DNA from: an alpha proteobacterium AAP38
GTDB taxonomy: Bacteria; Pseudomonadota; Alphaproteobacteria; Azospirillales; Azospirillaceae
Direction of reading: 5' to 3'
Assembly: GCA_001296005.1 (NCBI GenBank)
Contig: LJHR01000005.1
Coordinates: 248,001 to 312,000 of the forward strand
DNA: 64,000 nucleotides
Shown here piece after piece: positions 4,584 to 23,364 of the stretch. A program made the translations under genes and the position numbers. The notes below the pieces were generated by a model. It was not told where the DNA came from. It did not search any database and worked only from the letters and a program-made list of their open reading frames with translations. How positions within the stretch are numbered: the first letter of the stretch is position 1; each line of letters opens with the position of its first letter.

Positions 4584-4594
4584 ATGTGTTGATT

Positions 4595-4621: not shown

Positions 4622-4623
4622 GT

Positions 4624-7962: not shown

Positions 7963-10900
7963 CTATCGCGTCAGCAATTGTACCGGTCCCAGAAGACCGG
8001 AAGGCAGCAGTTGGGCATCCGCACCATAGGCGGGGGCCTGGGTGTAGGTGATCTTTTCTGCCCCCGGCTGAGCATCGCCGATCAGGCGATTGACCCAAAG
8101 ATTGGTTACCTTCACCTCAATCCGGTTCCGACCCGGCGTCAGGTGCGGTGTTATCTCAATCCGGTAAGGCGGATGCCACAGCAGGCCCACGGGTTGGCCG
8201 TTGATGCTGATCTCTGCGATGTCCCGCACCACGCCCAGATCCAGCAGCACCGGTTGGCTTTGCCCGATCCGGCCCTTTGGCATATCAAATGTCTGGCTGT
8301 ATTTGGCTGTGCCGGAGAAATAGCGGATGCCCGGCTCCGTCCGTTCCGTCCATGACATAAGCCGGTCGAAGCGGCTTTGGGCGGGGGCGCCGCGTTGGGC
8401 CTGGAACTGCACCTCCCATGGCCCCTTCAGTTCAAGCATGGGCCGCAGGGGTGGGGTTTGCAGGTCCAGCTTGTCCGACAGGGAGGCTTTGCGGAACAGC
8501 ACGAAAAATGCCTCGTGCCCATCCATCGTCAGCGGCAGATATGTGCGGTCCTCTGCGATCCGGTAGGATACCGGATTAATAATGCCGGTTTCGGCCCGCG
8601 CCAGTTCCGGTGCCTTGCCGCTGATCCGGAAGCTGATCTCACCGTTGAGAGGTTCCGCCCGGCGGTTGCTGACGAAATAAAGGTCGCCATCGGGCAGACG
8701 GCGGTGCAGCACCTGTATATCCCCCGCCAAGGCACCGGAATCCCAGTCCGGTGTCAGGTTGCGGGTCTTTAGGGCTGTGTCCAGATCGGGATGAATGCGG
8801 CCTGACGCCCAGAGCTGATCGGCCAATATCCGGAACGTACCGGCATCATCGGCAAGGCTGGGCGTGCCCACGGGTTTCTGCCCCACGATGGTGGCACCCG
8901 CCGCCGCGAAGGCCGCGATCCGGCGCAGGACGGACAGCGTCATCATCCGGCTGGAACCGCCCAGCACCAGAATGGGATAGCGCACGCCGCTTTTGCCCAC
9001 CAGATCCCCGTTTTCGACGGATAACTGGTTCAGCAGCCCATCCGCCCCGACGAAGTCGAACGCGTATCCGGCGGGGATATCGTTCAGGAAGCGCTCACCA
9101 TAAAGCCCGGTGATTGGCGCCTCCTCCCCATAGAAATAGGCGATATCCCGCTGCGACTGCCCCTGTTGCAGCAGGTAGGAGGAGCGGGCGAGATAGTCGG
9201 TCCAGCCCCGCGCCTGTTCGGCCCAGGTTTCACCCCGGCTGAAATACTGGCCCAGTACAGTGGCAAGCGCCAAGCCGGGGACCCGCCCGTCAGTGAAGGG
9301 CTGATGCGGCGAGGTGTGGATGACCGGCCGGTTGACGCCCAGGGCGAATAATGTGTCTGCGGTCGGTTTCAGGTCGCGCGGGGAAAAAGCCCAGGGCTGC
9401 CCAAAGGCCGTGAAGGATTCGGCGGCCACCAGCTTCTGACCATAAATGTGGGCGACCGATGCCGCACCCTGAAGGTCGGCGACATAGGTGGGCTTGGGCT
9501 GTCCCCCCTTGGGCAGTGTCCACATGGCGCCCATGGGAATATCGGCATGGCGCCGCATCTCCATATCGTCGCCAAGCTGCGGGCGCTGGTCCTCCAGCGC
9601 TTCAGCGTAGTAGGTCAGCCCTTGTTCCCGCGCGGCCCTGGCCAGTACGCCATAATGGTTCTCGGCCAGCAGTTCGGCGATGGTACGGCGGAAATCCCAG
9701 AGGAAGCGGTCGCTGGCCTCCGCCCCACCGATGACTGCACCGGTCAGGGCGGGCAGCCAGGGCAGGGCGTCATAGCCCCGCCTGGACCGGAATTCGGCCA
9801 GCATAGTCTCGGTCCAGTTCTGCGGCCCTGACTCGATACTGTCGGAGAGCAGGGCGCGGATGCCCTTCTCCCCCATCAGTTCCGCCCCGACCGCATCGCG
9901 GTACATGCCGAAATACCTGTTGGCATAGTCCCCGACATGCTGCGTATTCAGCTTGTCCACCTCCAGCCCCGTCGCTTCCTTCGGCGCCGGCGCGTTCTGA
10001 TGTCCGGTCAGGGAATATCCCAGCCGGACTACACGCCAGCGCCCGGCGGGCGGGGTCCAGTCCAGCGTGCCATCGGGCCGCAGATGACGGGTCAGATCGA
10101 TCACATTCCCCGGCGGCGGTGCGCCACCGACGGCTTCGGCGGGTGTGGCGATGGCGTAATAGTCGCGAACGGTGGCATACCCGGCCTTTTCCTCTGCCCG
10201 ATGGACGCGCGGGGCGCTGTCCAGGCGGAATTCGGAAAGGCGGTAGTTTGCCGGGGGTGCCGGAAAGCGGGGCAGGACGACACCCGATGCCAGCGGGGGC
10301 GGACCGCCGGCGGATGATGCCTCCACCGACAGGGTAAGACGGAAATGCCGTGCCGTCACCGGCGCGAAGGAGGCGGAGCGAACGGGAGAGCGTGTGGCGG
10401 GCAGGGTGGTAATTTCGCGGAAAGCGACGCCGTCGTCACTGGCCTCCAAGCGGACCAGTGGCGGGACGGGTGAACCGAACCCGCGCGCCCCCGGCTGTCC
10501 GACCACGACAGAGCGGATGGTGACCGGTTTTTCAAAACTCTGCATGACCCAGGCGGCTGATGTGGGACCACCGAAGGGCAGGTCGATTGTCTCGCTATAG
10601 CGTTCGTCATTCATCAAGTGGGCGGGAACCGTGCCGCTGCTGGCCGTCAACCGCGCCGGGGGCAGGGGATCGGTCTGCGTCCGCCAGGCCAGGACAGCAA
10701 TATCCCGGTAGAAGGCGGGTCCATCGCCACTGCCCGGCTTGATCAGGTTTCGCGGAACGTCCTGATAAGGGCCAGCCACGTCTGGCGGCTTTGATAAGGA
10801 AATGCGCTGCTTTCGCCCGCCCGTAACGGTGGTGCCACTCCATACCAGCTTCTTCATTGCCGCTTCGGGCGTGACCCAGGGGCCGCCCGTCGCACTCCAT

Positions 10901-11280
10901 CCGGGGGAAGAGGCGATGGCGACATCCAGCCCCAGTTCCTTTGCCTTCGCGACAGAACTGCGTAGGGCCGCCTTCCAGGCTGGCGACATGTAGATCAGCC
11001 GTTCAGGAACCAATTGCGGCGTTTCCAGATTGCCTTCGAAAATCTGGACACCGCCGATCCCGGCCCCCTTCATCCATTCCAGATCAAGCTTCGCCCCGTC
11101 GGCGCTGACATTCCCATTCATCCAGTGCCACCAGACATGCGGACGTGCCTGGGCCGGTGGGTTACGGAACTGCTGGTCCAATGTGCCATCCGGCTCCCCG
11201 GCCAGCACCGGGGATACCAGCAGCAGGGTTGCGGCCAGACGAATGGCGGAAAGGCCCTTCGGCGTGATCATGATGTTCAC
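7963..11280 (-). CDS. GH106-type alpha-L-rhamnosidase, secreted
   Basis: 1105-residue glycoside hydrolase with a signal peptide (cleavage around LLLVSPVLA-GEP). The mature start RPHVWWHWMNGNVS, the DLEWMKGAGIGGVQIF segment and IASSPGWSATGGPW match the N-terminal catalytic region of GH106 rhamnosidases. The C-terminal end (LLDLGVVRDIAEISINGQ then NRIEVKVTNLWVNRLIGD) is the galactose-binding-like beta-sandwich that closes these proteins. Known members remove terminal alpha-L-rhamnose from flavonoid glycosides or pectic RG-II side chains in the periplasm or outside. It lies 53 bases downstream of a TetR gene on the same strand and probably shares its transcript. A role in trimming rutinose- or neohesperidose-type plant glycosides would suit the 12-22 kb locus; this is inferred. 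Confidence 0.82.
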   Translation of the reverse strand: MNIMITPKGLSAIRLAATLLLVSPVLAGEPDGTLDQQFRNPPAQARPHVWWHWMNGNVSADGAKLDLEWMKGAGIGGVQIFEGNLETPQLVPERLIYMSPAWKAALRSSVAKAKELGLDVAIASSPGWSATGGPWVTPEAAMKKLVWSGTTVTGGRKQRISLSKPPDVAGPYQDVPRNLIKPGSGDGPAFYRDIAVLAWRTQTDPLPPARLTASSGTVPAHLMNDERYSETIDLPFGGPTSAAWVMQSFEKPVTIRSVVVGQPGARGFGSPVPPLVRLEASDDGVAFREITTLPATRSPVRSASFAPVTARHFRLTLSVEASSAGGPPPLASGVVLPRFPAPPANYRLSEFRLDSAPRVHRAEEKAGYATVRDYYAIATPAEAVGGAPPPGNVIDLTRHLRPDGTLDWTPPAGRWRVVRLGYSLTGHQNAPAPKEATGLEVDKLNTQHVGDYANRYFGMYRDAVGAELMGEKGIRALLSDSIESGPQNWTETMLAEFRSRRGYDALPWLPALTGAVIGGAEASDRFLWDFRRTIAELLAENHYGVLARAAREQGLTYYAEALEDQRPQLGDDMEMRRHADIPMGAMWTLPKGGQPKPTYVADLQGAASVAHIYGQKLVAAESFTAFGQPWAFSPRDLKPTADTLFALGVNRPVIHTSPHQPFTDGRVPGLALATVLGQYFSRGETWAEQARGWTDYLARSSYLLQQGQSQRDIAYFYGEEAPITGLYGERFLNDIPAGYAFDFVGADGLLNQLSVENGDLVGKSGVRYPILVLGGSSRMMTLSVLRRIAAFAAAGATIVGQKPVGTPSLADDAGTFRILADQLWASGRIHPDLDTALKTRNLTPDWDSGALAGDIQVLHRRLPDGDLYFVSNRRAEPLNGEISFRISGKAPELARAETGIINPVSYRIAEDRTYLPLTMDGHEAFFVLFRKASLSDKLDLQTPPLRPMLELKGPWEVQFQAQRGAPAQSRFDRLMSWTERTEPGIRYFSGTAKYSQTFDMPKGRIGQSQPVLLDLGVVRDIAEISINGQPVGLLWHPPYRIEITPHLTPGRNRIEVKVTNLWVNRLIGDAQPGAEKITYTQAPAYGADAQLLPSGLLGPVQLLTR

Positions 11281-11333
11281 TTTCCAAAGCCGGGGATTGT
11301 TCTAAGGCCTGCGCAGCGTGGCGCCTGCGCTGG

Positions 11334-12047
11334 TCAGTTCTTCAGATAGGAACTGATCATCTTGCACAGTTCCTGGACGACCCAGTCCGGGTGCTGCTGT
11401 GGCTTGGTCGGGCGCTGGGTTTCCGGTGTCAGCTGCCAGGCCAGGGCGAAGAAGATCATATGCAGCGCATAGGATGCCTTCAGGTCGAGATCGCCCGGAA
11501 TGTCACCCGCGAACCTTTTCAACGCCTCATGCAGCCGTTTTGCGGCCCGCTGCTCATGCAGGTCACCCAGCGTTGCGGCGGCCGGGTCCGTGGCGGCGCG
11601 GCGGATATTGAGGCGGATGAAAAGGGAGTTGCGCTTCAGTACCTCAAAGAAATCAAGAACGTAGAGCTTGATGAACTGATCCAGCGAGGATGAGCGGTCA
11701 AGCGACTGCTGCTGAACCAGTGTTTCCGCGGCCTCGATCTCATGCATTTCGGCTTCAAGGACGGCACGGACCAGTTCGTCCTTGCTGCTGAACCGATGAT
11801 AGATGGAACCGATGGAGACGCTGCCGGTGCTGCTCACCTCGTTCAGGGTGAATTCTTCGCCATCGCGTTCCAGCATCAGGTCGCGGGCGGCGGCGAGCAT
11901 GCGTTTCAAGGAGGCCTGACTGCGCCCCTGCACCGGCTCTCGGTCCAGGCTGAGCGGAACCGGATCGCCCGATGGCACGGAAGCCCGGCGGGACCGCGCC
12001 GGGGATTGTCCGTTTTCAGGCGATTTCAGCTGTTTGACCATAAGCAT
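11334..12047 (-). CDS. TetR family transcriptional regulator
   Basis: 237 residues. A disordered, basic N-terminal extension of about 45 residues precedes the TetR helix-turn-helix (FTLNEVSSTGSVSIGSIYHRF, about 72-92, interrupted here only for description). A helical ligand-binding domain follows. The ATG at 12047 has GGAG six bases upstream; an internal ATG at 12041 is the alternative. A perfect 8+8 palindrome lies 25 bases upstream of the start and is a good autoregulatory operator. It heads the GH106 transcript and diverges from the TBDR/C-deglycosidase series, so it may control both in response to an aromatic aglycone. No ligand can be assigned. Confidence 0.85.
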   Translation of the reverse strand: MLMVKQLKSPENGQSPARSRRASVPSGDPVPLSLDREPVQGRSQASLKRMLAAARDLMLERDGEEFTLNEVSSTGSVSIGSIYHRFSSKDELVRAVLEAEMHEIEAAETLVQQQSLDRSSSLDQFIKLYVLDFFEVLKRNSLFIRLNIRRAATDPAAATLGDLHEQRAAKRLHEALKRFAGDIPGDLDLKASYALHMIFFALAWQLTPETQRPTKPQQHPDWVVQELCKMISSYLKN

Positions 12048-12071
12048 TGCTTACTCCGAAGACGGCACATT

Positions 12072-12089
12072 TCGCAACGTCCGTTGCGA
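12072..12089. promoter_or_regulatory. Palindromic operator candidate for the TetR protein
   Basis: TCGCAACG-TC-CGTTGCGA, a perfect inverted repeat with eight-base arms and a two-base spacer, located just upstream of the tetR start codon. Size and position suit a TetR dimer site. Binding is inferred. Confidence 0.55.
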
Positions 12090-12269
12090 GGGATTTTCTG
12101 ACCCTTGATCCGCCGACATATCTGATGCCGCCGGTTCCAACCCATGGGCTGTTTCTCGGGATGGGTAAGGGAGTTATTTCAGATCAATGACTTATGTTGT
12201 CATCCCCGCCCCCGTCGCGATCTGTCGGCCTTTTGGAGCATGATTTATTCGGGGGGCAAACAAGGGCAC

Positions 12270-12298
12270 TTGACATCGTCCTTCAACAGCCATACTAA
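12270..12298 (+). promoter_or_regulatory. Sigma-70-like promoter candidate for the TBDR
   Basis: TTGACA at 12270-12275, a 17-base spacer, then TACTAA at 12293-12298, about 165 bases before the TBDR start. The -35 is perfect and the -10 matches four of six consensus positions. The region between 12090 and 12463 otherwise shows no gene. Confidence 0.45.
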
Positions 12299-12463
12299 AA
12301 TTATATTCCAATTCGAGTTTGACGCAAGGGAATTGCGGCGGCCGGCAGTCGGCCCTGTCTCTTGATGGAGGTGATGTTTGGTCCCGGCGTGCTTCCGGGG
12401 CTTTGCGCCGTCACGCCCGAATTGGGGCTCACAAAACCAAGATAAAATTAGGGAGATGCAAGA

Positions 12464-14800
12464 ATGAGAACGTGTCAGTCGATCAAGATGCTGCTGTTGG
12501 CCTCGTGCGCCGCCATGGTGCCCGGTCTTGCCCAGGCGCAGGCCCCGGCGGCATCGGCCCAGGATGATGTGCTGGCCGAGATTATCGTGACGGCGCAGCG
12601 CCGTAGCGAAAGCGTGCTGAAGGTGCCGACCAGCGTCGCCGTGGTGTCTGCCGACCTGCTGACCTCCAACGGGGTCAATGACCTTGCCTCGATCACCAAG
12701 CTGACGCCCAGCCTGCAGACCGGCATTGATGACACCTTCTCCATCCGCGGGATCGGCACCAACACCTATGCGCCGACCGTTGAGTCCACCGTGTCGCAGG
12801 TTGTTGATGACGTTGTGCTGGGCATTCCCGCCTTTGCTGCCAATGCCTTCTATGATGTTGCGCGGGTTGAGGTTCTGAACGGTCCGCAGGGTCTGCTGTT
12901 CGGCAAGAACGCCTCTGCCGGTCTGGTCAACATCACCACCGTTAATCCGGTTCTGGGAGAGACAAGCGGCTTCATCGACGCGGAGGGCACCAGCCGTTTC
13001 CGGCCCGGATCGAACGGCCTGGGCATCCGCAATCGCGCGGCCCTGAATGTTCCGGTCACGGAAGCCAGCGCCCTTCGTATTGCCGGCACCTACAGTTCAC
13101 AGGACTCGCTGGTCCGTAATGTCACCAAGCCTGCGGGCCGCTATGAGGATGATGTCGAGGAGAAGGGTGTCCGCCTCAAGTTCCTGAGCGATCCCGGCAA
13201 TGGTTTCACCATCAATCTTGGCGGCGACTATTTCAAGCGCACCGGCATCTCGGGTTTCTGGGATACCACCTACCGGTCGCTGGGTGCCAATACGCAGTAC
13301 CGGACGATCCTTGGCGGGGCCGGCGTTGTCCCCAGCGCTGAGAACCTGGAAATCGCCCAGGACGGCCAGTCCTGGCGCGATATCGAGATGGGTGGTGTCC
13401 AGGCAAAGCTCGCCTATGTCTTCGATGACGGTATGGAACTGTCCAGCATTTCGGCCTGGAAGAAGATGGATCATTCCTACGCGAATGACTCCGATCAGAC
13501 CCCGGTCAATTTCCTGAACGTCAATACCAACAGCACGCAGTACGACCAGTTCTCCCAGGAAGTACGTCTGGCGCTTCCCGATGATGGTCCCTTTGGCGGT
13601 CAGGCGGGGCTGTATTACTTCCAGAGCAATACTGACAATCAGGTACAGCGGGGAGGCTTTAACAATCTGCCCGCCGCGGCCCTGCCGCGCTTCCCCTTCT
13701 GTGTGAACGCCACCGTCACGGCGGGGCCGCCGCCGGCTTGCAGTGTCAGCAACCTTTACTTCCTGGGGCAGGATTCCCGGCTTGAAAGCCAAGTGCGCAG
13801 CTACGCCGCCTTTGGCCAGTTCAATTACGCCCTGACCGAGCAGTTGAAGCTGACCACCGGCGGTCGGTTGACCTATGACAAGGCTTCCATTGATCTGGTG
13901 GAAAACACCAAGAAGTATTTCGTCACGCTTGGCGTTCCCAACAATGTCAGCAAGGGCGATGTCGATAACACCAACTTCAGCTGGAAAGTTGGCCTGGACT
14001 ATGACCTCGACCCGAACACCCTTGTCTATGGCTTCTATGGCCGTGGCTATAAGGGGCCGGGTTTCTCCAACGCCTCACCGAAGGCGGGCGCTGATATCAG
14101 CGTGCGTCCCGAAATCTCGAAGGGCGGTGAGGTTGGCATCAAGTCGTCACTGCTGGACCGCAAGCTGATCATCTCCGCTTCGGTCTTCCACACCCGCTTC
14201 ACCGACCTTCAGGTTCAGTCATTTGACGAGGTGCTGCAGGCCAACACCCTGAACAACGCCGCCACCGCTACCACCAAGGGTGCGGATCTGACCCTGCAGG
14301 CCCGTCCGGTTCGGGGGCTGACCTTGGGGGCGTCGCTTTCCTACACGGATGCGAAGTTCAATTCCTATCCGGGGGCGCAGTGCTATGTGCTGCAATCCAA
14401 TGCAAGCTGTGCCGTGAATAACACGTTCGACGCCGGTGGTCTGCGGGTGCCGCTGTCGGCCAAGTTCACCAGCACCTTGACGGCGGATTACACGGTGCCG
14501 GTGACCGACAGCCTGGATGGCGTCACGGGCGTCACCTATTACCACCGCTCGCCGCTGAACTCCGGCTTTGCGCCGGGGATGACGGTTCCCACCACGGACC
14601 GCTTCGACGCCAATCTGGGGATCAAGGCGGAAAGCTGGTCGGTCAGCCTGTTCTGCAAGAACTGCTTCAACCAGATCAGGCCCTACGCCATCGGCAATGA
14701 CGCCGGCGATGCCGTCAATGCCAAGACCCTGTCTCTGACGCAGCGGTTCAACTACGACTCCGTCCGCACCGTTGGTGTGCGCATGGGCGTGAACTTCTGA
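12464..14800 (+). CDS. TonB-dependent outer-membrane receptor of the glycoside locus
   Basis: 778 residues with a signal peptide (ending near LAQAQAPA), a TonB box-like LAEIIVTAQRR, a plug with FSIRGIGTN and VEVLNGPQGLLFGKNASAG, and a barrel ending GVRMGVNF. It is the first gene of the plus-strand series leading into the C-deglycosidase-like pair and should bring a bulky glycoside into the periplasm. Oddities are several Cys pairs in predicted outer loops or strands (CVNATVTAGPPPAC, CYVLQSNASC, FCKNC), unusual for a TBDR barrel and compatible with disulfides. The ATG follows AGGGAGATGCAAG at good spacing. A very stable hairpin directly follows the stop. Confidence 0.9.
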   Translation: MRTCQSIKMLLLASCAAMVPGLAQAQAPAASAQDDVLAEIIVTAQRRSESVLKVPTSVAVVSADLLTSNGVNDLASITKLTPSLQTGIDDTFSIRGIGTNTYAPTVESTVSQVVDDVVLGIPAFAANAFYDVARVEVLNGPQGLLFGKNASAGLVNITTVNPVLGETSGFIDAEGTSRFRPGSNGLGIRNRAALNVPVTEASALRIAGTYSSQDSLVRNVTKPAGRYEDDVEEKGVRLKFLSDPGNGFTINLGGDYFKRTGISGFWDTTYRSLGANTQYRTILGGAGVVPSAENLEIAQDGQSWRDIEMGGVQAKLAYVFDDGMELSSISAWKKMDHSYANDSDQTPVNFLNVNTNSTQYDQFSQEVRLALPDDGPFGGQAGLYYFQSNTDNQVQRGGFNNLPAAALPRFPFCVNATVTAGPPPACSVSNLYFLGQDSRLESQVRSYAAFGQFNYALTEQLKLTTGGRLTYDKASIDLVENTKKYFVTLGVPNNVSKGDVDNTNFSWKVGLDYDLDPNTLVYGFYGRGYKGPGFSNASPKAGADISVRPEISKGGEVGIKSSLLDRKLIISASVFHTRFTDLQVQSFDEVLQANTLNNAATATTKGADLTLQARPVRGLTLGASLSYTDAKFNSYPGAQCYVLQSNASCAVNNTFDAGGLRVPLSAKFTSTLTADYTVPVTDSLDGVTGVTYYHRSPLNSGFAPGMTVPTTDRFDANLGIKAESWSVSLFCKNCFNQIRPYAIGNDAGDAVNAKTLSLTQRFNYDSVRTVGVRMGVNF

Positions 14801-14809
14801 TCCTCACGA

Positions 14810-14841
14810 CCCCCGGGGGAAGCGGGCGCTTCCCCCGGGGG
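14810..14841. terminator. Very stable intercistronic hairpin
   Basis: Perfect 14-base-pair stem (CCCCCGGGGGAAGC / GCTTCCCCCGGGGG) with a four-base GGGC loop between the TBDR and the next gene. There is no T tract. It may be a partial terminator or an RNA processing/stability element that lets the TBDR be expressed more strongly than the downstream enzymes. Confidence 0.65.
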
Positions 14842-14879
14842 CGATGACGGAAATCCTGACCAAGAGGGAGTGCAACGCC

Positions 14880-15797
14880 TTGAGCGCGTTCAAATACGGG
14901 GTGTCGCTCTATAGCTACACCGAAGATCTTGGTACTGTGATGAGCTTGGAGGATGCCTTCGATCATGTCGCGGGCACCGGTTCCACGGGTATCGAAATCC
15001 TGGGTGAAACCAGCATTCCCACTTATCCGGAGCCGACATCGGCCTGGCTGGATAACTGGTTCGCTCTGCTGGACCGATACCAGTTGGAGCCGACCAACAT
15101 GGCGGCCTGGGTGGATACCCGCATCACCATTGGCCGCAACATGAGTGCGCAGGAGGGGACGGCGCAGATTGCCCAGGACCTGCGGCTTGCGCACCGGCTG
15201 GGCTTCAAGTTCCTGCGGCCCAAGTTCGGGGTGATCGATGGCGACCTGACCCCCGATCCGATCTGGGAGCCGGCGGTTGAGCGCAATCTTGATCTGGCCC
15301 AGCAGTTGGACATCGTGATCCTGCCGGAAATCCATTCGCCGACGCCGATCCGTCATCCGGTGACCGATGCCTACATCGCCTTCATCGAACGGACCGGCAC
15401 GAAGAATTTCGGTCTGATGATCGATACCGGCATCTTCCAGGACCGTCCCCTGAACAAATGGGGCGGCGGGGAAACGGACGAAATCCGCAAAGGTGCGTTG
15501 AGTTTCCTGAACGGTATCAAGGTGCCGGTCGAACATCTGGTCGACGTCATCAAATATGTGCCCTTCATCCAGGCCAAGTTCCACCATATCGACGAGACGC
15601 TGCACGACCACCACATCCCGTGGGACCGGATCGTGCCCATGCTGAAGAAGCTGGGTTATGCGGGTTACCTGTCGAGCGAGTATGAGGGCGCGCGCGATCC
15701 CTGGGTATCCATTGAGCAGGTGCGCCGTCAGCACGCCCTGATCCGCAAACTTGAAGCCGAATACGATGCCGCCCACGGGGGGAACCTCCATGCTTGA
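14880..15797 (+). CDS. Sugar isomerase/epimerase-fold protein, probable C-glycoside deglycosidase alpha subunit
   Basis: About 305 residues forming an AP-endonuclease-2/xylose-isomerase-type TIM barrel. Probable metal ligands sit where the family has them: Glu150 (LPEIHS), Asp182 (MIDTG), His235 (KFHHID) and Glu267 (SSEYEG). The next gene, overlapping by 8 bases, is a DUF6379-like small protein. That pairing is the signature of C-glycoside deglycosidases (CarBC, DgpBC, DfgAB), in which the metal subunit opens the C-C bond of a 3-keto-C-glucoside. I prefer TTG 14880: GAGGGAG sits 9 bases upstream, whereas ATG 14844 lies only two bases after a 14-bp hairpin and has no binding site. No signal peptide, so cytoplasmic. 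It could instead eliminate 3-keto-O-glycosides; sequence alone cannot decide. Confidence 0.78.
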   Translation: MSAFKYGVSLYSYTEDLGTVMSLEDAFDHVAGTGSTGIEILGETSIPTYPEPTSAWLDNWFALLDRYQLEPTNMAAWVDTRITIGRNMSAQEGTAQIAQDLRLAHRLGFKFLRPKFGVIDGDLTPDPIWEPAVERNLDLAQQLDIVILPEIHSPTPIRHPVTDAYIAFIERTGTKNFGLMIDTGIFQDRPLNKWGGGETDEIRKGALSFLNGIKVPVEHLVDVIKYVPFIQAKFHHIDETLHDHHIPWDRIVPMLKKLGYAGYLSSEYEGARDPWVSIEQVRRQHALIRKLEAEYDAAHGGNLHA

Positions 15798-16194
15798 GCG
15801 CAGCCATATCCAGAGCACGGGTTTCCACAATATCGGCCCTGTCGGTGCGCGCACCGGCTTTGAGGTGCGTATCCGTCAGCCCAATTACCGCAGTTCCCGC
15901 CTCAGCCTGATCGAAGGGGTCGATCTGGTAATCGACGGGGTGGAATATCCCGCTGAACAGAGCCGCATCCGCGTGGGCGACCGGGAGTATACCCATGCGG
16001 AGATGGCTGAGGAAACGGTGGCCCGCCTCTATGTAGGCACCTTCTTCACGGTGATCGTGCCCAAGGAAGGTGGTCTGGCGCCGGGCGTTCACCATGTGGC
16101 CAGCTCCATTCGTTTCCGCCACCCCTATTTCCCGCCGCAGTTCCAGCCGGTTTTCGTGCGCGATGCGCGGCACGCCACGATCATCCTGCCCTAG
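15790..16194 (+). CDS. DUF6379-like C-glycoside deglycosidase beta subunit
   Basis: 134-residue beta-rich protein starting at MLERSHIQSTGFHNIG. The VDLVIDGVEYPAEQSRIRVG segment, the GDREYTHAEM loop and the VPKEGGLAPGVHHV turn match the small subunit of bacterial C-glycoside deglycosidases. In those enzymes it packs on the TIM-barrel subunit and completes the active site. The ATG at 15790 lies inside the end of the alpha gene (8-base overlap), so translation is coupled and a 1:1 complex is likely. A longer in-frame reading from 15751 would overlap the alpha gene further and lacks support. Family assignment rests on motif memory plus the diagnostic neighbour. It is cytoplasmic, without signal or membrane segment. 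Confidence 0.75.
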   Translation: MLERSHIQSTGFHNIGPVGARTGFEVRIRQPNYRSSRLSLIEGVDLVIDGVEYPAEQSRIRVGDREYTHAEMAEETVARLYVGTFFTVIVPKEGGLAPGVHHVASSIRFRHPYFPPQFQPVFVRDARHATIILP

Positions 16195-16221
16195 CAAACG
16201 AAGAATATCGGGGGGGGCAAC

Positions 16222-17763
16222 ATGCGCTCCAGGATTATGACTTCTTTGGTTGCGACCTTCTTGCTTCTGCTTGGGTCTGCCCACGCTGCCGATCGGGTGG
16301 TGCGGGTGGATACAGGTGCCCTTGAGGGGGCGGAGCAGAACGGGGTCCGCTCCTTCAAGGGTATCCCCTTTGCGGCACCGCCGGTGGGGAACTTGCGCTG
16401 GCGTGCGCCGGTCCCTCACGCCTCCTGGACGGGCGTGCGGCAGGCCAAATCCTTTGGCAATGATTGTCAGCAATTGCCGTTTGCGGGGGATGCAGCACCC
16501 TTGGGTGGACCCTTGGGAGAGGATTGCCTCTACCTGAATATCTGGGCACCGGCGGACGCGAAGCCGGGTATCCAATATCCGGTGATGTTCTGGATTTATG
16601 GCGGTGGCTTCGTCAATGGCGGTACGTCGCCGGGTGTCTATGACGGCAGTGCCTTTGCCCGCAGCGGGGTGATCCTGGTCAGCGCCAATTACCGCATCGG
16701 CCGGCTTGGCTTTTTCGCCCATCCGGCCCTCACGGCGGAGGCGGCGGATGGCCCCACTGGCAATTTCGGTTTCATGGATCAGCTTGCGGCGCTGAAATGG
16801 GTTCAGCGCAATATCGCTGCCTTCGGCGGTGATCCGGCGAATGTCACGATCTTCGGTGAATCCGCCGGTGGCCGGTCGGTGCATATGTTGCAGTCGCTGG
16901 ATACCGCAAAAGGGCTTTTCAGTCGGGCCATCATGATGTCGGGCGCCGGGCGCCCCGGCAGTGTGATGAGCATGACGGATCGTAAGGCGGCGGAAGAAAA
17001 GGGTGTGGCTTACGCCCGGTCCGTTGGTGTCACCGATACCGGACCCGCCGGTCTTGCGGCCTTGCGGGCGCTGCCGGCATCCACGCTGGGTGATGCAAGC
17101 ATGGCGAGCCTGCTGAAAACCGGCGATCAGTTGATGATCAACCCGCATATTGACGGGCGGTTCGTGACGGATGAGCCGGAGCGGCTGTTGGCGGCGGGTC
17201 ATGGCTCGCCCCACATTCCCGTGATGGTCGGTGCGACCGGCATGGACGGGTTTCCCCTGGACCGCGACCCGGCGCGTGCGCTGGCCAGCTTCGGCGCCAG
17301 GGCCGATGAAGCCAGCCGCCTTTATGCCAGCCGGAATGATCTGATCACGGTCTGGAAGATTGCCGGCGACCGGGGGTTCATCGAACCGGCGCGTTACGTC
17401 GTCCGCGCGGCAGCAGCGCGGAACGCCACCAGTTACGGGTATCGCTTCTCCTATATCGCGCAATCGCAGCAGGCAACCGCAATGGGCGCCATGCATGCCA
17501 GCGAAATTCCGTTTGTCTTCCGCACCATCAATGTCCGGTTTCCGGGGCAGGTGACGCCGGCGGACGAGGCAACGTCAAAGGCCTTCCACGATTACGTCGT
17601 GTCCTTTGCCCGCGACGGTGTGCCCAGCGCAACGGGGGGGCCAGATTGGCGCCCCTATGACCCTGCGGCGGACAAGATACTGGATTTCACCCTGCAAGGT
17701 CCCCGTTTCATCGATGACCCGTACCGTGCCCGCCTGGATCTGGTGGAAAGCACGGCACCGTGA
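16222..17763 (+). CDS. Secreted type-B carboxylesterase
   Basis: 513-residue alpha/beta hydrolase with a signal peptide (MRSRIMTSLVATFLLLLGSA-HA). The carboxylesterase B signature is plain: early SFKGIPFAAPPVGNLRW, EDCLYLNIW, the oxyanion loop YGGGFVNGG, and nucleophile Ser214 in FGESAGG. The catalytic His is about residue 425 (GAMHASEIPF). Such enzymes hydrolyse carboxylic esters; in this context removal of acetyl, malonyl or aromatic acyl groups from plant glycosides in the periplasm is plausible. A GGGGGGG-rich binding site precedes the ATG, 27 bases after the deglycosidase beta gene, indicating the same operon. Confidence 0.88.
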   Translation: MRSRIMTSLVATFLLLLGSAHAADRVVRVDTGALEGAEQNGVRSFKGIPFAAPPVGNLRWRAPVPHASWTGVRQAKSFGNDCQQLPFAGDAAPLGGPLGEDCLYLNIWAPADAKPGIQYPVMFWIYGGGFVNGGTSPGVYDGSAFARSGVILVSANYRIGRLGFFAHPALTAEAADGPTGNFGFMDQLAALKWVQRNIAAFGGDPANVTIFGESAGGRSVHMLQSLDTAKGLFSRAIMMSGAGRPGSVMSMTDRKAAEEKGVAYARSVGVTDTGPAGLAALRALPASTLGDASMASLLKTGDQLMINPHIDGRFVTDEPERLLAAGHGSPHIPVMVGATGMDGFPLDRDPARALASFGARADEASRLYASRNDLITVWKIAGDRGFIEPARYVVRAAAARNATSYGYRFSYIAQSQQATAMGAMHASEIPFVFRTINVRFPGQVTPADEATSKAFHDYVVSFARDGVPSATGGPDWRPYDPAADKILDFTLQGPRFIDDPYRARLDLVESTAP

Positions 17764-17815
17764 CAGGTCACGCGAAATCGTAAAATGAAACAAAATGAAT
17801 GAGGGAGTTGGAAAC

Positions 17816-19147
17816 ATGCTCACGAGGCGGCAAATCGGTTTGGGTCTGGCTGGACTTGGTGTTGCGGCGGCGGCCCGGCCCTTGCCCGGTCTGGCGGCAA
17901 CGGGCCAGCGCCAGTTTCCCCAGGGTTTCCTGTGGGGTGCCTCCACCTCCGCCTATCAGGTGGAAGGCAATAATATCAATTCCGACGTCTGGACGGCGGA
18001 ACGCGCCCCCGGATCGCCCTATGCCGATGTGGCCGGCGATGCCGCCAACAGTTTCATGCTGTGGCCGGTCGATCTTGATCTGGTCAAGAATATGGGCCTG
18101 ACATCCTATCGGTTCAGCCTGGAATGGGCGCGGATCGAACCATGGCAGGGTGAGTTCTCCATCGCCATGCTGGACCATTACAAGCGCATCATTGAGGGCT
18201 GCCACGCGCGCGGCCTGACGCCAGCCGTGACCTTCAACCATTTCAGCAATCCGCTCTGGTTTGCGTTGGCGGGCGGCTGGCACAATCCCGAAGCGCCGGA
18301 TCTGTTCGCGCGTTTCTGTGCCAAGGCCGCCGCTCATCTGGGTGACGGTATCGCCTTTGCCATGACGCTGAACGAGCCGAACCTAGCGGGCAACCTGCCT
18401 GCGGTACTGCCGCCGGCGGTGGTCAACTGGCTGGTACCGGCGGACAAGGCCGCGTGTGAGGCGGTGGCTAAGCGTTTCGGCGTGCCGCTGTTCCTGACCG
18501 GCAATAACATCTGGTATCCCGACCCGGTTGCCGTGCAGGTCAATCTGCTGAAGGGCCACGCGCTGGGTCGGCAGGCGATCAAGGCTGAACGTCGTAACCT
18601 GCCGGTCGGCGTGACGCTGGCTATGATCGATGATCAGGCGGTGGGCATCGACACCAGCCTGCGCGACAGCGTGCGGGAGCGGCTCTATAATCCCTGGCTG
18701 CGCGCAGCACAGCAGGATGATTTTATCGGCGTGCAGAATTACGAACGCGCGCTTTGGGATGCCAAGGGCCGCGTCAACCCGCCAGCCGGCGGTGACCGCA
18801 ACATGGGCGGGGCGGAGGTTTATCCCGCATCCTTGGCGGGCGTGGTCCGTTATGCCCATTTCATTGCCAAGGTGCCGGTGATCGTGACCGAGCATGGTGT
18901 GAACACCCCTGATGACGCTGTGCGCCAACGTCTGATCCCGGCGGCCCTGACGGAACTGCACAAGGTGATGGCCGAGGGCGTGCCGGTGAAGGGCTATTTC
19001 CATTGGTCGCTGATCGACAATTTCGAATGGGGCTTCGGGTACAAGCCGCAGTTCGGGCTGCATAGTCTGGACCGCCAGACCTTCGCCCGCACGCCAAAGC
19101 CCAGCACCGCCGTTCTGGGTGCCATCGCGCGCGCCAATGCCTGCTGA
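17816..19147 (+). CDS. GH1 beta-glucosidase with Tat signal
   Basis: 443-residue family GH1 enzyme that cleaves beta-O-glucosides (or galactosides/fucosides) with retention. The acid/base Glu187 lies in TLNEPN and the nucleophile Glu359 in VTEHG; the N-terminal FPQGFLWGASTSAYQVEG motif is typical. The start MLTRRQIGLGLAGLGVAAAARP carries a twin-arginine motif followed by a hydrophobic stretch, so folded export to the periplasm is predicted. This is uncommon for GH1, which is mostly cytoplasmic. ATG 17816 is chosen because GAGGGAG precedes it and the Tat motif begins there; an upstream ATG at 17795 adds seven residues without support. It overlaps or abuts the transporter gene that follows. Confidence 0.9.
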   Translation: MLTRRQIGLGLAGLGVAAAARPLPGLAATGQRQFPQGFLWGASTSAYQVEGNNINSDVWTAERAPGSPYADVAGDAANSFMLWPVDLDLVKNMGLTSYRFSLEWARIEPWQGEFSIAMLDHYKRIIEGCHARGLTPAVTFNHFSNPLWFALAGGWHNPEAPDLFARFCAKAAAHLGDGIAFAMTLNEPNLAGNLPAVLPPAVVNWLVPADKAACEAVAKRFGVPLFLTGNNIWYPDPVAVQVNLLKGHALGRQAIKAERRNLPVGVTLAMIDDQAVGIDTSLRDSVRERLYNPWLRAAQQDDFIGVQNYERALWDAKGRVNPPAGGDRNMGGAEVYPASLAGVVRYAHFIAKVPVIVTEHGVNTPDDAVRQRLIPAALTELHKVMAEGVPVKGYFHWSLIDNFEWGFGYKPQFGLHSLDRQTFARTPKPSTAVLGAIARANAC

Positions 19148-19206
19148 TGAATTCACCGCCGGCGGGGCCGATGGTGCCCAGAGCCGGCGAAAACGGGAAT
19201 GTGATC

Positions 19207-20400
19207 ATGACCGACGCGACAAAAGCCGGTCAGGGGACCGTGGCCAAGGGCCTTACCCTGATCTATGCCCAGATTCTGCCGGTGATGGCGATTGTCTCGC
19301 TGTTTCCCGCCATTCCCAAGCTGTTTGCGGAATTCGGGTCCAATCCCAATGCCGGTTTCCTGATCCCCGCCATCGTCACGGCGCCATCGCTCTGTGCCGC
19401 CCTGTTCGCCCCGCTGGCGGGGATCATCGCCGACCGATATGGCCGGCGGCGCAGTTTCATCGGCGGCATGGCGCTTTATGTGCTGGCCGGTCTGGTCCCC
19501 TTGTTCGTGGCCGATCTGGGCCTGATCATTGCCAGCCGTGCCGTGCTGGGCATTGCCGAAGCCTTTGCCATCACCATTTCCAGCGCCTTGATCGGCGATT
19601 ATTTCGGTGAACAGCGTCACCGCTGGACCGCCTGGGTCGGCGTTGCCACCTCCGTGGCGGGGACGGGGCTGATTGCGGCGGGTGGTGCGCTGGCGGATAT
19701 CAGTTGGCGTGGCCCGTTCTCCATCTATCTGGCGGCCATCCCCGGTCTGATCATGGCGGTGCTGTTCATTGATGAGCCACGCCCCACGGTCAGCGCACAG
19801 GGCGGCACCCGCCGCCAACTGGCGTTCCCGTGGAAGGAGGCGCTGCTGATCGGCACCGTCACCCTGATCAGCTCCGTTCTCTACTATGTCGAACCGCTGA
19901 ACATTGCCCGTGTGCTGGATGCCAAGGGGGCCGGATCATCGACGGAGATCGGCCTGATCCAGGCGGCGACCAGCCTCACCTATATCGCCGGCGCCTTCCT
20001 GTATCGTCGCCTGCATCACTGGCCCATTGGCCGTCTGCTGGGGCTGGCGGCACTGCTGATCGGTGCGGGACAATTGGTCATCGGTATGGGGCCGACCTGG
20101 CAGGTCGTGTCGGTGGGTGCTGCCATTCAGCAGCTTGGCGGTGGCATGGTGATCCCGGCCCTGCTGGCCTGGGGGCAGGCGATCCTGCCACTGGAACAGC
20201 GCGGGCGTGGCATGGGTATCTGGGCAACCGCTTTCTTCAGCGGCACCTTTGCCTGTGGCGCCATTGTCGCCCTGGCCACCAGCCTGACGGGTGGTCTGAC
20301 CCCGGCCATGACGGCGCTGGGTGTTGTCACCCTGGTCTTCGCCTTGCTGGCCCGCCTGATCCCGGCGGGAAACCGCCCCACCCCAACCGTGAATAGCTGA
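19207..20400 (+). CDS. Major facilitator superfamily permease
   Basis: About 397 residues with 12 predicted membrane spans. The MFS loop 2-3 motif is visible as GIIADRYGRRRSF, and later helices are rich in Gly/Ala. In this operon it most likely carries a deacylated or partly trimmed glycoside, or the released sugar, across the inner membrane. An in-frame ATG at 19147 overlaps the GH1 stop (ATGA) and would add 20 residues with no helix or binding site. I prefer ATG 19207, which starts directly before the first span, but the choice is uncertain. Family certain, substrate not. Confidence 0.85.
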   Translation: MTDATKAGQGTVAKGLTLIYAQILPVMAIVSLFPAIPKLFAEFGSNPNAGFLIPAIVTAPSLCAALFAPLAGIIADRYGRRRSFIGGMALYVLAGLVPLFVADLGLIIASRAVLGIAEAFAITISSALIGDYFGEQRHRWTAWVGVATSVAGTGLIAAGGALADISWRGPFSIYLAAIPGLIMAVLFIDEPRPTVSAQGGTRRQLAFPWKEALLIGTVTLISSVLYYVEPLNIARVLDAKGAGSSTEIGLIQAATSLTYIAGAFLYRRLHHWPIGRLLGLAALLIGAGQLVIGMGPTWQVVSVGAAIQQLGGGMVIPALLAWGQAILPLEQRGRGMGIWATAFFSGTFACGAIVALATSLTGGLTPAMTALGVVTLVFALLARLIPAGNRPTPTVNS

Positions 20401-20402
20401 TC

Positions 20403-22016
20403 ATGACCGACACCGTTTACGACTACATCATCGTGGGGGCGGGTTCATCCGGCTGCGTCCTTGCCGACCGGTTGAGCGCCAGTGGCAGGCACAAGGTCCT
20501 GCTGGTGGAGGCTGGTGGCCGGAACGAGACCGAACTGGTCAACATGCCGCGCGCCTTCATGAAGATGTTCGGCAATCCCACGCATTTCTGGCATTTCCCC
20601 ATCAAGCCGCAGCCGGGCCGCCCGGCGGGTGAGGTCTGGCCCTATGGGCGGGGGTTGGGCGGGTCCAGTTCCACCAATGGCACCTGGTACCTGCGCGGCA
20701 TGCCGGCTGACTATGAAGGCTGGGGACCGGAATGGTCCTGGACGGAGATTTCGCGCTGTTTCCAGGCAATGGAAAGCTATCGCGGGCACGGGGCACACCC
20801 AACGCGTGGTCGCGATGGGCCGTTGCAGGTAACGCAGCTTCCCTACCGTTCGCCCGCCATTGCCGCCTCAATTGAGGCGGGGGTGGAAATGGGGCTTCCC
20901 CGGCTGACCGATATCAACACGCCGGGCACGCTGGGCATCGGCTATACCCAGGCGAGTGTGGATCGGCGGGGCCGGCGGGCGTCCAGTTACCGCGCCTTCC
21001 TGAAGCCGGCTTTGTCGCGCCCCAATCTGAGCGTGCTGACCGATACGCTGGTGGAACGGGTGGAACTGGAGGGAGCGCGCGCCACCGGCATCACGATCCG
21101 TACCGCCGAGGGGACCCGCATCATCAAGGCTGGGCGGGAGGTGATCCTGTCCGCCGGTGCCTTGCAAAGCCCCAAGCTGCTGCAGCTGTCGGGCATCGGC
21201 CCCGCCGATCTGCTGATCCGTGCCGGGGTGGCGGTGCGGCATGATCTGGCCGCCGTGGGGCGCAATCTGGCCGACCATGCGATGCTCTCCATGTCATACC
21301 GGCTACATAATGATCCAGGCTTTAACAGGGAATTTTCCGGCTGGCGCCTAATGACCCACGTTCTGCGCTATTACCTGACGCGCAAGGGTCTGATGGCCTA
21401 TACCTCGCCAGAGGTGACGGCGCTGCTGTCCCTTCATGGTCGTCCCGACTGGCCCGATGTGCAGTTCGGCATCGGCCCCTTCTCCATGCGCTCGTCAGAG
21501 GAGATCAAAGCCGATCCGGGGCGCGGCGCGCTGGAGGACAAGCCGGGTATCACCGTCAATGCCATCGCCCTGCGCCCCAAAAGTCGGGGCAGCGTCGCGA
21601 TCCGCAGCGCCGATATCGCCGACCAGATTGAGGTCGATGCCAACTGGTGGGGCGACCCGGCAGACAAGGCCTTCATGGTGGAGATGGTGCGGCTGGTCCG
21701 CAAGTACATGCGCCAGCCCGCCTTGAAGCCCTTTGTGGGGGAGGAGATTGTGCCCGGTCCCCGCATCGAAAGTGATGAGCAGATTGCTGACGTGCTGGAA
21801 TGGCTGACCAGTCCGGGCGTTCACGCCACAGGCACCTGCCGCATTGGCAATCCGGTGGACAGTGTGGTGGATGGTTGCCTGCGGGTGCATCGGGTGCAGG
21901 GGCTGCGCGTCGTGGATTGTTCCGTCATGCCTGTACCACCCGCCGGCAACACCAATGGTCCCGCCATGGTCATCGGCTGGCGTGCCGCGGAAATGATCCT
22001 GCGGGATGTGGTGTGA
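20403..22016 (+). CDS. GMC-family FAD-dependent oxidoreductase
   Basis: 537 residues. The Rossmann motif GAGSSGCVLADRLS is at about 12-25, the acidic LLVEAGG ends beta-2, and GMC signature 1 is GRGLGGSSSTNGTWYLRG. Signature 2 is SAGALQSPKLLQLSGIGP. The C-terminal catalytic pair appears as His474 (HATGTC) and Asn516/Asn518 (PAGNTNGP). GMC enzymes oxidise alcohol groups of sugars, choline or aryl alcohols. C-glycoside cleavage needs prior oxidation of the sugar C3 hydroxyl, which in CarA is done by a flavin enzyme, so this gene is the best candidate for that step here. It is closer in look to choline/alcohol dehydrogenases than to pyranose oxidase, so the role is inferred. It ends the operon, two bases after the permease stop. 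Confidence 0.87.
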   Translation: MTDTVYDYIIVGAGSSGCVLADRLSASGRHKVLLVEAGGRNETELVNMPRAFMKMFGNPTHFWHFPIKPQPGRPAGEVWPYGRGLGGSSSTNGTWYLRGMPADYEGWGPEWSWTEISRCFQAMESYRGHGAHPTRGRDGPLQVTQLPYRSPAIAASIEAGVEMGLPRLTDINTPGTLGIGYTQASVDRRGRRASSYRAFLKPALSRPNLSVLTDTLVERVELEGARATGITIRTAEGTRIIKAGREVILSAGALQSPKLLQLSGIGPADLLIRAGVAVRHDLAAVGRNLADHAMLSMSYRLHNDPGFNREFSGWRLMTHVLRYYLTRKGLMAYTSPEVTALLSLHGRPDWPDVQFGIGPFSMRSSEEIKADPGRGALEDKPGITVNAIALRPKSRGSVAIRSADIADQIEVDANWWGDPADKAFMVEMVRLVRKYMRQPALKPFVGEEIVPGPRIESDEQIADVLEWLTSPGVHATGTCRIGNPVDSVVDGCLRVHRVQGLRVVDCSVMPVPPAGNTNGPAMVIGWRAAEMILRDVV

Positions 22017-22058
22017 TGGCGGAGTGGGGCGGCCTGGAAACATTGGTTGCCGGTCCGG

Positions 22059-22205
22059 TCATCCCGGAACATAGATGGCGCTGATCCGGTTCAGGCCGTC
22101 TGCCCGGTAGAAGCGGACCTGTTCGAAGCATCGCTTGATGATGCCGAGCCCGCGACCGGAGGTGGCATCAGGCGCTACGTCATCCGTCGCATTGTCATAG
22201 CGTTG
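22059..22205 (-). pseudogene. C-terminal remnant of an RsbW-like anti-sigma serine kinase
   Basis: Reading the minus strand in the frame ending at TGA 22059-22061 gives about 45 residues ending ATSGRGLGIIKRCFEQVRF then YRADGLNRISAIYVPG. This matches the G2-box and last strands of HATPase_c domains of RsbW/SpoIIAB kinases (GRGLxII...D.V.Y...G.N). No start codon or N-terminal ATP-binding half exists upstream, where the STAS gene lies instead. The normal gene would be about 140 codons, so roughly two thirds is missing. It directly overlaps the STAS stop codon, as in intact partner-switch operons. Confidence 0.6.
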
Positions 22206-22520
22206 CTTTCGACGTCGGGATGGATGGCGAAGACCTTATCCATGCGCGTCAGGGAGAACATGGTCTGAACCGATTTCTGTAGGCCGCAGATGGTGGGCCG
22301 CTGCTTCAGGCCCAGGGCCTTGATGATGGAGATCAGGGCGCCGAGACCGCTGGAATCGATGAAGGCGACGGGGGCCAGATCGATGACGATGCCATTCTCG
22401 GCGGCCGGCAGCTGTTCCAGGAACTGCTGCCGGAAGCGTACCGCCACGGCGGCGTCGATGCGAGGCAAGGCAACGGTGGCGACGGGGACGGAACCGATAT
22501 GTCCTGATCTCAGTCATCAT
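22175..22520 (-). pseudogene. STAS-domain anti-sigma-factor antagonist, apparently frameshifted near its start
   Basis: The STAS body reads VPVATVALPRIDAAVAVRF, then VIDLAPVAFIDSSGLGALIS with the phosphorylatable Ser in DSSG, and ends at TAG 22175. In partner switching this Ser is phosphorylated by an RsbW-type kinase and dephosphorylated by a PP2C phosphatase. The best start, ATG ATG at 22520-22515 with GAGG five bases upstream, is one base out of frame with the domain (52 bases to the TTG at 22468). In the domain frame only CTG 22513 or TTG 22468 could initiate, and TTG would delete the first strand. Either a frameshift or a rare CTG start is needed. It lies immediately downstream of the phosphatase. 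Confidence 0.65.
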
Positions 22521-22524
22521 TACC

Positions 22525-23364
22525 TCAATCTCTTATCGCGACTTCAAAGGCCAGTACGCTGACATCATCCTCGAACCTCTCCCCACCCTGCCACGCGGTC
22601 AGGGTTTCATAGAGCAGGGGTTCCAGAGCGTTTAGGGGCCGATCCTTCGCCTTCTCCAAAAGGGCATGTAATCGATCTTGACCGAAATGCGTGCCGTCCG
22701 GGTGGGCGCATTCGGTCGTACCGTCGGAATGCAGAATGATGCGTGATCCGCGTGGCAACGGGACCGTCACCGCCGTGTAATCCTCATGCGCCATCACGCC
22801 CACGGGAAAGCCGCCATCACCGATCAGTTCAGCTGGCTGACCGGCCTGGATTAGGATCGGGCTGGGGTGCCCCGCCTGGCAGAAGGTCATGCTGTCGCCC
22901 GCTGGGTTCACCACGCCACAGACCATGGTGAAATAATCCAGCATCTCGCCATCGGCCCGGGTGAAGCGTCGGTTCAGGTCCGCCACCACCAGATCCGGGC
23001 GGGGTGGTCCGCCATCCGCCCCCGACAGAAAGGCCGCTTCGTCCAGCAGATGGTTCAGTGTCACCGACATCAGGGCGGCCCGCACCCCATGTCCGGCAAC
23101 GTCGACCATATAGAAGGCGACCGATCCGTCCGGCAGTTTCAGGTAATTATACATGTCACCCGACACCAGCGCCGATGGCAGCAGGCAGGAGGCGAAACGC
23201 AGCCGCCCGATTTCCTTGTAAGGCTCCGCCAGCAGGCAGCGCTGGGCCATTGCTACGGCCTCCATATCCTCCTTCAGCTTGGCGTAGGCCACGCGCAGCT
23301 GATCGGTCAGCAGCTTGTTCTTGCTCTGCAGGCGGTAATGCAGGCCCAGAAGCCGCTTCACCAC
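22525..23364 (-). CDS. SpoIIE/PP2C-type phosphatase (split from its receiver domain by a stop codon)
   Basis: About 280 residues. An N-terminal coiled-coil linker (HYRLQSKNKLLTDQLRVAYA) leads into a SpoIIE-like PP2C domain with all metal-binding acidic motifs present: SGDMYNY, MVDVAGHGVRA, SDGTTEC and FEDDVSVLAFEV. Such phosphatases dephosphorylate STAS proteins. The reading frame is continuous with the preceding receiver domain except for one TAG at 23365-23367. Two GTG codons immediately after that stop (23364, 23361) could allow reinitiation. The original product was probably a 400-residue REC-PP2C fusion. The STAS gene follows 4 bases after the stop. Confidence 0.75.
   Translation of the reverse strand: MVKRLLGLHYRLQSKNKLLTDQLRVAYAKLKEDMEAVAMAQRCLLAEPYKEIGRLRFASCLLPSALVSGDMYNYLKLPDGSVAFYMVDVAGHGVRAALMSVTLNHLLDEAAFLSGADGGPPRPDLVVADLNRRFTRADGEMLDYFTMVCGVVNPAGDSMTFCQAGHPSPILIQAGQPAELIGDGGFPVGVMAHEDYTAVTVPLPRGSRIILHSDGTTECAHPDGTHFGQDRLHALLEKAKDRPLNALEPLLYETLTAWQGGERFEDDVSVLAFEVAIRD

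Follow-up and report, generated by a model that had tools for sequence, protein, structure and literature searches.

C-glycosides resist hydrolysis. In the parts of the literature surveyed, the organisms in which their cleavage has been characterised are gut Firmicutes and soil actinobacteria, and not Gram-negative bacteria of soil or plants. In soil actinobacteria, the CarABC and PurABC systems combine a GMC flavoenzyme with a C-glycoside deglycosidase (CGD) pair, as described in the available text of PMC12724307 and PMC10807413. A related four-step logic, in the order oxidation, elimination, hydration and reduction, was reported for the GlycDH-AtOGE-AtHYD-Gfo operon of Agrobacterium, but AtOGE is unrelated in sequence to CGD and acts on O-glycosides, and no small beta partner is mentioned in the part of PMC10628242 available. 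Proteobacterial CGD homologues are already mentioned in the available text of PMC8563793 and PMC12724307, in which the word 'TonB' occurs 0 times. Here we analysed a window of 64,000 nucleotides from the alpha proteobacterium AAP38 (Azospirillaceae; contig LJHR01000005.1, positions 248,001 to 312,000), in which a CGD-type alpha-beta pair lies within a run of seven genes beginning with a TonB-dependent receptor (TBDR). We consider it likely that this run is part of a regulated operon for consuming decorated plant aryl C-glycosides.

By its sequence, predicted fold and catalytic residues, the TIM-barrel/PF19906 pair is a predicted C-glycoside deglycosidase. An earlier note on this DNA, made from the sequence alone, had called the small protein DUF6379-like and staked its reading on a hidden Markov model search for that family; when run, this search matched PF19906 ('C-glycoside deglycosidase beta subunit') at E 6.8e-33 over 112/112 profile positions. 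At E 1e-3 or better, the alpha protein matched eight distinct solved sequences, all eight of CGD type by title, and the best of them was 8qrz, by its deposition title the C-glucosyl deglycosidase of Microbacterium testaceum. As modelled by AlphaFold (34 sequences, pLDDT 87.4, pTM 0.86), alpha superposed on 8qrz with Z 41.7 and rmsd 1.6 over 292 residues at 58% identity. Among the best 1000 Foldseek matches, the top 13 rows in the fold comparison all belonged to the CGD group (Z 41.7 to 31.2), and the next structure followed at Z 24.7. Family matches, predicted fold and catalytic residues, save one first-shell change at the metal site, thus bore out the CGD-type pair that the note had proposed.

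The M. testaceum enzyme (8qrz, 8un2) resembles the window pair in fold, in a Gln at one metal position and in having a beta part, but it is actinobacterial and carries beta and alpha in one 435-residue chain, whereas the window has two overlapping genes. No paper naming 8qrz or 8un2, and none on this enzyme, was among the matches listed in a limited literature search. DfgAB/EuCGD from Eubacterium cellulosolvens (7dre), the closest relative in the fold list with His at that position (Z 37.0, 35% identity), shares the alpha-beta pair, the base and most metal residues; it differs in the metal His, which is Gln in the window, and comes from a gut anaerobe. The beta protein aligned to the N-terminal part of 8qrz and also matched DfgB, DgpB and others. 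Its Y33 aligned with DgpB Tyr39, reported as critical for C-C cleavage in the available part of PMC13273386, and this Tyr was conserved in 100/100 beta open reading frames (ORFs; 88 distinct, from 97 loci).

Around this pair, the ORF listing and Pfam confirmed one co-directional run of TBDR, alpha, beta, esterase, GH1, MFS and GMC at the positions given in the earlier note (Table 1). In the proposed pathway, the TBDR would bring the glycoside into the periplasm, the esterase would strip acyl groups, a GH106 enzyme encoded next to the run would remove rhamnose and GH1 O-linked glucose, and the MFS carrier would pass the stripped C-glucoside on to the cytoplasm. The GMC flavoenzyme would then oxidise C3 of the sugar, and the alpha-beta CGD with a divalent metal, using His164 as base and beta Tyr33 at the phenol, would eliminate the aglycone and leave 2-hydroxy-3-keto-glucal. 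IolE-like and Gfo/Idh enzymes from a second locus would hydrate and reduce this product to glucose. Association across genomes supported the roles of the GMC, hydratase-like, Gfo and TBDR proteins, while substrate, direction of transport, order of steps and regulation are what we infer.

Comparative genomics supported a 3-keto reading of the clade formed by the closest relatives of the window alpha (window clade). Neighbouring genes were counted around 39 loci, namely 37 from a genome scan plus L023 and L024 (L and G denote our loci and genomes), in stretches that mostly reached 10 kb to either side and in some cases far less, and the counts include weak profile matches below 100 bits (L038, L042, L056, L058, L064). 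Gfo/Idh genes lay near 18 of the 39 loci, flavin adenine dinucleotide (FAD) monooxygenase near 13, GMC near 12, GH106 and DUF1080 (PF06439, 3-keto-disaccharide hydrolase) near 11 each, GH1 near nine, aldose epimerase near seven, Gluconate_2-dh3 near six and a hydratase-like TIM barrel near four. At least one of the GMC, DUF1080, Gfo and hydratase-like genes was found in 24/39 loci, and 12 of those 24 had GMC. As a rough guide, the loosest count in 13 genomes was 37 GMC candidates in one of 7.5 Mb, or about 0.1 per 20 kb, so that chance would give at most about 4/39, a comparison that is not a statistical test because the loci are related to each other. On plasmid p1 of Novosphingobium sp. ES2-1, the annotated order was DUF1080, Gfo/Idh/MocA, aldose 1-epimerase, TetR, TonB receptor, TIM barrel and DUF6379. 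The GH106 gene near a window-type pair was seen beyond Niveispirillum as well (L023, L031, L032, L033, L047, L048, L051, L052, L059, L060, L062).

Such neighbours also bear on whether the pair might be a 3-keto O-glycoside beta-eliminase, which deglucosylates O-glucosides after C3 oxidation and splits no C-C bond in vivo. PuCGE also eliminates 3-keto-phlorizin (PMC13273386, available text), and DUF1080 as well as GMC with Gluconate_2-dh3 adjoin relatives of the window pair, a likeness to the alphaproteobacterial LacABC and DUF1080 3-keto route for lactose in Caulobacter, where such proteins act on O-glycosides. That route differs in having periplasmic oxidation and a proposed hydrolysis, and the available part of PMC9007349 mentions no CGD. 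However, O-glycosides already have an enzyme of their own in the operon, namely GH1, the Tyr to which a critical part in C-C cleavage has been attributed was present in all 100 beta ORFs, and the closest solved homologue was deposited as a C-glucosyl deglycosidase, so we regard an O-glycoside eliminase as unlikely.

Genomic association supported the earlier suggestion that the GMC enzyme makes the 3-keto substrate, and we propose it as a candidate glycoside 3-dehydrogenase/oxidase, whose activity and C3 regioselectivity are presumed. It carried the GMC family domains, a GAGSSG at residue 12, presumably the FAD motif, and His474 in HATGT, which we take to be the catalytic His. The protein fell in the choline-dehydrogenase-like branch (NF002550, 423 bits, under its cut-off of 605), and the pyranose-oxidase profile TIGR02462 was not among its nine NCBIfam families at E 1e-3 or better. 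CarA, in contrast, is placed with the pyranose oxidases, the type of the known soil systems. Another GMC of a relative (GMC-B) matched TIGR02462 weakly (59.5 of 544.9 bits).

The GMC gene was surveyed in 13 genomes, two from a sister genus and 11 from the window's own genus, among them the window genome itself. It was present at 90% identity or more in five of them (the window genome, G002, G005, G006 and G010), all with a window-type pair; in G005, GMC and pair lay on separate contigs, so that adjacency was not seen there. The best GMC in the other eight genomes reached 46% identity. A 75% identical orthologue was found in Sphingomonas (L052, L053), a few kb from the CGD pair, in a different gene order with MFS and Gfo. 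In N. irakense (G001, L034), the orthologous alpha (88% identity) was accompanied by a different GMC with Gluconate_2-dh3, located after TBDR, monooxygenase and MFS, and the same replacement was seen in some sphingomonads. This swap in N. irakense is the best evidence that the two GMC types may share one job. Strain RU38E (G002) has a second GMC copy of 55% identity, which adjoins a 67% copy of the IolE-like gene (G002:C51:69215-71932); the contig itself had no reported PF19906 match.

The earlier note had seen a full route in the operon. This was not borne out, since by ORF list and Pfam the hydratase-like and Gfo/Idh genes for the steps after elimination were absent from it. A second PF19906 pair was present in the same genome about 77 kb away (G000:C45:338215; L003 226-16958), and its alpha was of the His type, close to the Deinococcus aerius CGD 8qvc (E 2e-116). 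According to Pfam, this locus 2 holds a Gfo/Idh protein, resembling levoglucosan dehydrogenase (87 of 650 bits), and a second TIM barrel, resembling IolE, both under the model cut-offs. Also present were a GPH symporter, above its cut-off, together with GH3 and a hydroxypyruvate-isomerase-like gene; a TonB receptor and TetR were recognised by similarity, and two more genes looked luciferase-like and flavin mononucleotide (FMN)-reductase-like by eye. Locus 2 was largely conserved in G001, G006 and four sister-genus genomes.

Since the genome has just one IolE-like gene of this kind, located in locus 2 with Gfo beside it (next best match, 26% identity), hydration and reduction for the window operon are probably supplied from there. 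In RU38E and SYP-B3756 (G010), Gfo and IolE-like genes lay inside the window-type operon itself. The idea of one mobile hydratase/Gfo module per genome was rejected, because both strains have close hydratase copies in operon 1 and, at about 11 and 25 kb, near locus 2; the 67% copy in RU38E is its third and lies elsewhere.

The same genes raise the question of which enzyme oxidises C3. If Gfo/Idh did so, as DgpA does, GMC might oxidise the released aglycone or an alcohol of the acyl part. Gfo/Idh is near more clade loci than GMC (18/39 vs 12/39, weak matches included), the locus-2 Gfo resembles levoglucosan dehydrogenase, if far under the cut-off, and the GMC is choline-dehydrogenase-like. Nevertheless, in this genome GMC lies inside the operon and Gfo outside, at six loci a different GMC occupies the same setting together with Gluconate_2-dh3, and the Agrobacterium pathway, in the available text of PMC10628242, uses Gfo as the final reductase. 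We therefore doubt that Gfo/Idh is the oxidase, and keep GMC as the proposed one.

We then compared the active site with that of AgCGD2, whose metal ligands are Glu147, Asp179, His269, Lys271 and Glu305, with His149 as base and Glu307 (PMC8563793, available text). The aligned residues in the window alpha were E162, D194, Q243, K245 and E279 at the metal site, with the base and its partner conserved as H164 and E281. The metal-ligand motifs claimed in the earlier note thus held for four ligands, whereas position 243 is Gln instead of the His of most solved CGDs. Among the residue-readable solved chains, Gln was found in 8qrz only and His in 8qvc, 7bvr, 7xrf, 7bvs, 9m3a and 9m3b; 7dnm (AgCGD2) has His as well (PMC8563793, available text).

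Every member of the window clade examined had this Gln. The peptide FIQAKFHH was among the six search patterns of the genome-contig scan, so that the Gln of its 37 loci is not an independent count; a count was therefore made on loci that PF19906 alone had detected. Of these 56 loci (two of them from the window genome, and several from close sister strains), 22 had Gln, 33 had His and one was truncated (L108); the other six of the seven active-site residues were identical in 55/56, with the truncated L108 ORF as the remainder. Twelve of the 22 Gln loci belonged to the window clade and ten to a separate group with the motif RHIQAKFY. The table of alpha residues leaves out L020, L021, L022 and L025 (same genomes as L034, L032, L033 and L031), and second alpha copies in L051 and L052 are cut by the stretch end, with some residues missing. 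In a FastTree phylogeny of 90 alphas (at least 270 residues, identical ones removed), the window clade with 8qrz comprised 44 tips, all Gln (support 0.78), and 43 tips without it (support 0.98). The RHIQAKFY group fell separately and, under midpoint rooting, grouped towards the His-type locus-2 enzymes, so that the His-to-Gln change seems to have arisen more than once. This group was seen in sphingomonads (L053 16994-18444, L077, L102, L103, L104, L106), and L053 bears it beside a window-type pair and the same GMC.

A further reading takes the Gln-type alpha for a paralogue with altered catalysis, such as a 3-keto-glucal hydratase or an epimerase, and locus 2 for the true C-C lyase. The missing metal His and the nearby His-type pair would fit this reading, but it is very improbable given that 8qrz (deposited under the name C-glucosyl deglycosidase) and a separate CGD group have the same Gln, that the beta Tyr, the base His, the Lys and both Glu are conserved, and that 24/39 Gln-type loci have their own 3-keto genes.

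For transport, the earlier note had regarded a TBDR-fed version as notable. The coupling is so, yet not singular, as a near same-strand TBDR (ending at most 600 bp before alpha or starting at most 3.5 kb after, with a 200-base overlap allowed) was found in 22/42 clade loci, and TonB coupling is thus recurrent in the clade. The receptor lay directly upstream in the window, L023 and L031-L033; in N. irakense and many sphingomonads it follows the pair. A TBDR anywhere in the stretch was found in 29/42 loci, a figure of little weight because TBDRs are common in these genera. Esterase, GH1 and GH106 together suggest an acylated, O-glycosylated C-glycosyl flavonoid as substrate; feruloyl- or sinapoyl-decorated C-glucosyl flavones, for example, occur in rice and barley. 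The FAD monooxygenase of sibling loci would fit a later hydroxylation of the aglycone.

Elsewhere in the window, a tannase/feruloyl esterase family protein adjoins a TonB receptor (30603-34625), and a TonB-receptor-like ORF (N-terminus) is followed by aldehyde dehydrogenase, GH3 and a putative esterase (42550-50764), possibly another plant-glycoside unit. The tannase/feruloyl-esterase-family protein with TBDR and GH3 is in keeping with a plant-phenolic diet.

Several observations weigh against a C-glycoside operon of this kind. The metal-ligand His is replaced by Gln in the window alpha, and alanine at the metal ligands of PuCGD and MiCGD, including this His, strongly lowers activity (PMC8563793, available text). 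The CGD label of 8qrz comes from its deposition title, and the functions of the operon members are predictions from sequence and, for alpha, from the modelled fold. The GMC is most similar to choline-dehydrogenase-like enzymes, whose branch acts on a range of alcohols. Genomes G001 and G011 have window-type pairs without this GMC; in G011, where the pair is more distant (59%), neither GMC type was found within the 19 kb examined. None of the four 3-keto genes was present in 15/39 loci (several of these stretches being short), and 20/42 loci were without a near same-strand TBDR. A wider model is offered tentatively, at somewhat less than even expectation. It holds that a distinct Gln-type CGD branch occurs in TonB-fed operons of Sphingomonadales and Azospirillaceae, served either by a soluble choline-dehydrogenase-type GMC (in that case a C-glycoside 3-dehydrogenase of a new kind) or by a Gluconate_2-dh3-linked GMC, and that in this genome a single hydratase/reductase pair serves both CGD loci, whose metal sites differ.

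As shown in Table 1, the seven plus-strand genes (12464-22016) are separated by successive gaps of 43, -8, 27, 31, -1 and 2 bases, the alpha and beta ORFs overlapping by 8 bases, and all seven proteins scored above the curated Pfam cut-offs in the profile search. By eye, signal-like N-termini were read on the GH106 and esterase proteins and a twin arginine in the GH1 N-terminus. GH1 also has Glu194 in NEP and Glu366 in TEHG, motifs whose role we presume. The seven-gene extent given earlier was right for the run, but the true unit is larger, as the divergent TetR and GH106 genes share the intergenic region. These two genes accompanied the operon in four sibling loci (L023, L031, L032, L033). 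The block of L031, a Niveispirillum metagenome-assembled genome (MAG) and the closest named record (alpha 99% identical), ends after beta at the contig end, and L032 and L033 have two additional genes; L032, deposited as Azospirillum sp. RU38E, groups in the window's genus. A consensus promoter scan gave no site in the TetR-TBDR gap. Over 11200-22600, it gave one promoter-like site (18663, within GH1) vs 2.8 expected and 4 terminator-like sites vs 8.9 expected, and is thus uninformative. Elsewhere in the window, 620-7914 holds a hydantoinase A and B pair, a GntR regulator and another TonB receptor.

Table 1. Features of the proposed C-glycoside operon and its divergent genes, in window coordinates
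Feature	Position	Strand	Evidence and remarks
GH106 alpha-L-rhamnosidase	7963..11280	-	PF17132 E 1.3e-287; best solved relative 6q2f, 1038.6 bits
TetR-family regulator	11334..12047	-	PF00440 E 1.2e-9; upstream of GH106, divergent from operon
Divergent intergenic region, presumed promoter/operator	12048..12463		416 bp between TetR and TBDR; basis: position
TonB-dependent receptor (TBDR)	12464..14800	+	PF00593 E 3.4e-36, PF07715 E 7e-12
CGD alpha-type TIM barrel	14844..15797	+	PF01261 E 4.5e-13; 8qrz E 3.5e-111
CGD beta subunit (DUF6379)	15790..16194	+	PF19906 E 6.8e-33
Carboxylesterase-family protein	16222..17763	+	PF00135 E 6.6e-110; GESAGG motif, Ser214
GH1 beta-glycosidase	17795..19147	+	PF00232 E 1.6e-53; best solved relative 4r27 E 1.4e-106
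MFS carrier, presumed inner-membrane importer	19147..20400	+	PF07690 E 3.5e-38
GMC flavoenzyme, choline-dehydrogenase-like branch	20403..22016	+	PF00732 E 4.2e-43, PF05199 E 1.8e-30

The PF19906 family is uncommon. It was found in 0/14 control genomes, 3/385 genomes of the class and 11/145 relatives (the window's own genome included in both), and 23/397 genomes in the family of G407. The 37 window-clade loci of the genome scan came mostly from Novosphingobium and Sphingomonas, and also from Niveispirillum, Croceicoccus, Ideonella and MAGs. On the Arthrobacter plasmid StoSoilB13-2 (L112 7584-10392), two tandem large alpha-type ORFs (about 435 and 496 codons between stops) were observed, sizes that would fit fused beta-alpha chains like 8qrz, with a GMC match 5 kb further. 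In a limited literature search, a TonB-linked CGD operon, the Gln clade and a choline-dehydrogenase-type partner were not found in print, nor was a paper joining C-glycoside, Sphingomonas and deglycosidase; among the matches listed, the C-glycoside-cleavage papers did not use 'TonB' and the CGD papers did not use DUF6379.

If the proposed reading is true, the clade would provide an outer-membrane-fed route for C-glycosides, and its His-to-Gln change would be a natural experiment on which metal ligand the reaction needs. The GMC branch would be new to C-glycosides, as far as the literature surveyed shows, and the oxidation step could be tested directly in the sister strains, whose orthologous lyases are accompanied by different oxidase modules. 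These results suggested that, in this plant-associated bacterium from a little-studied branch of the proteobacteria, decorated plant C-glycosides are probably imported across the outer membrane and their otherwise inert C-C bond to the sugar split by a variant of a known enzyme pair.

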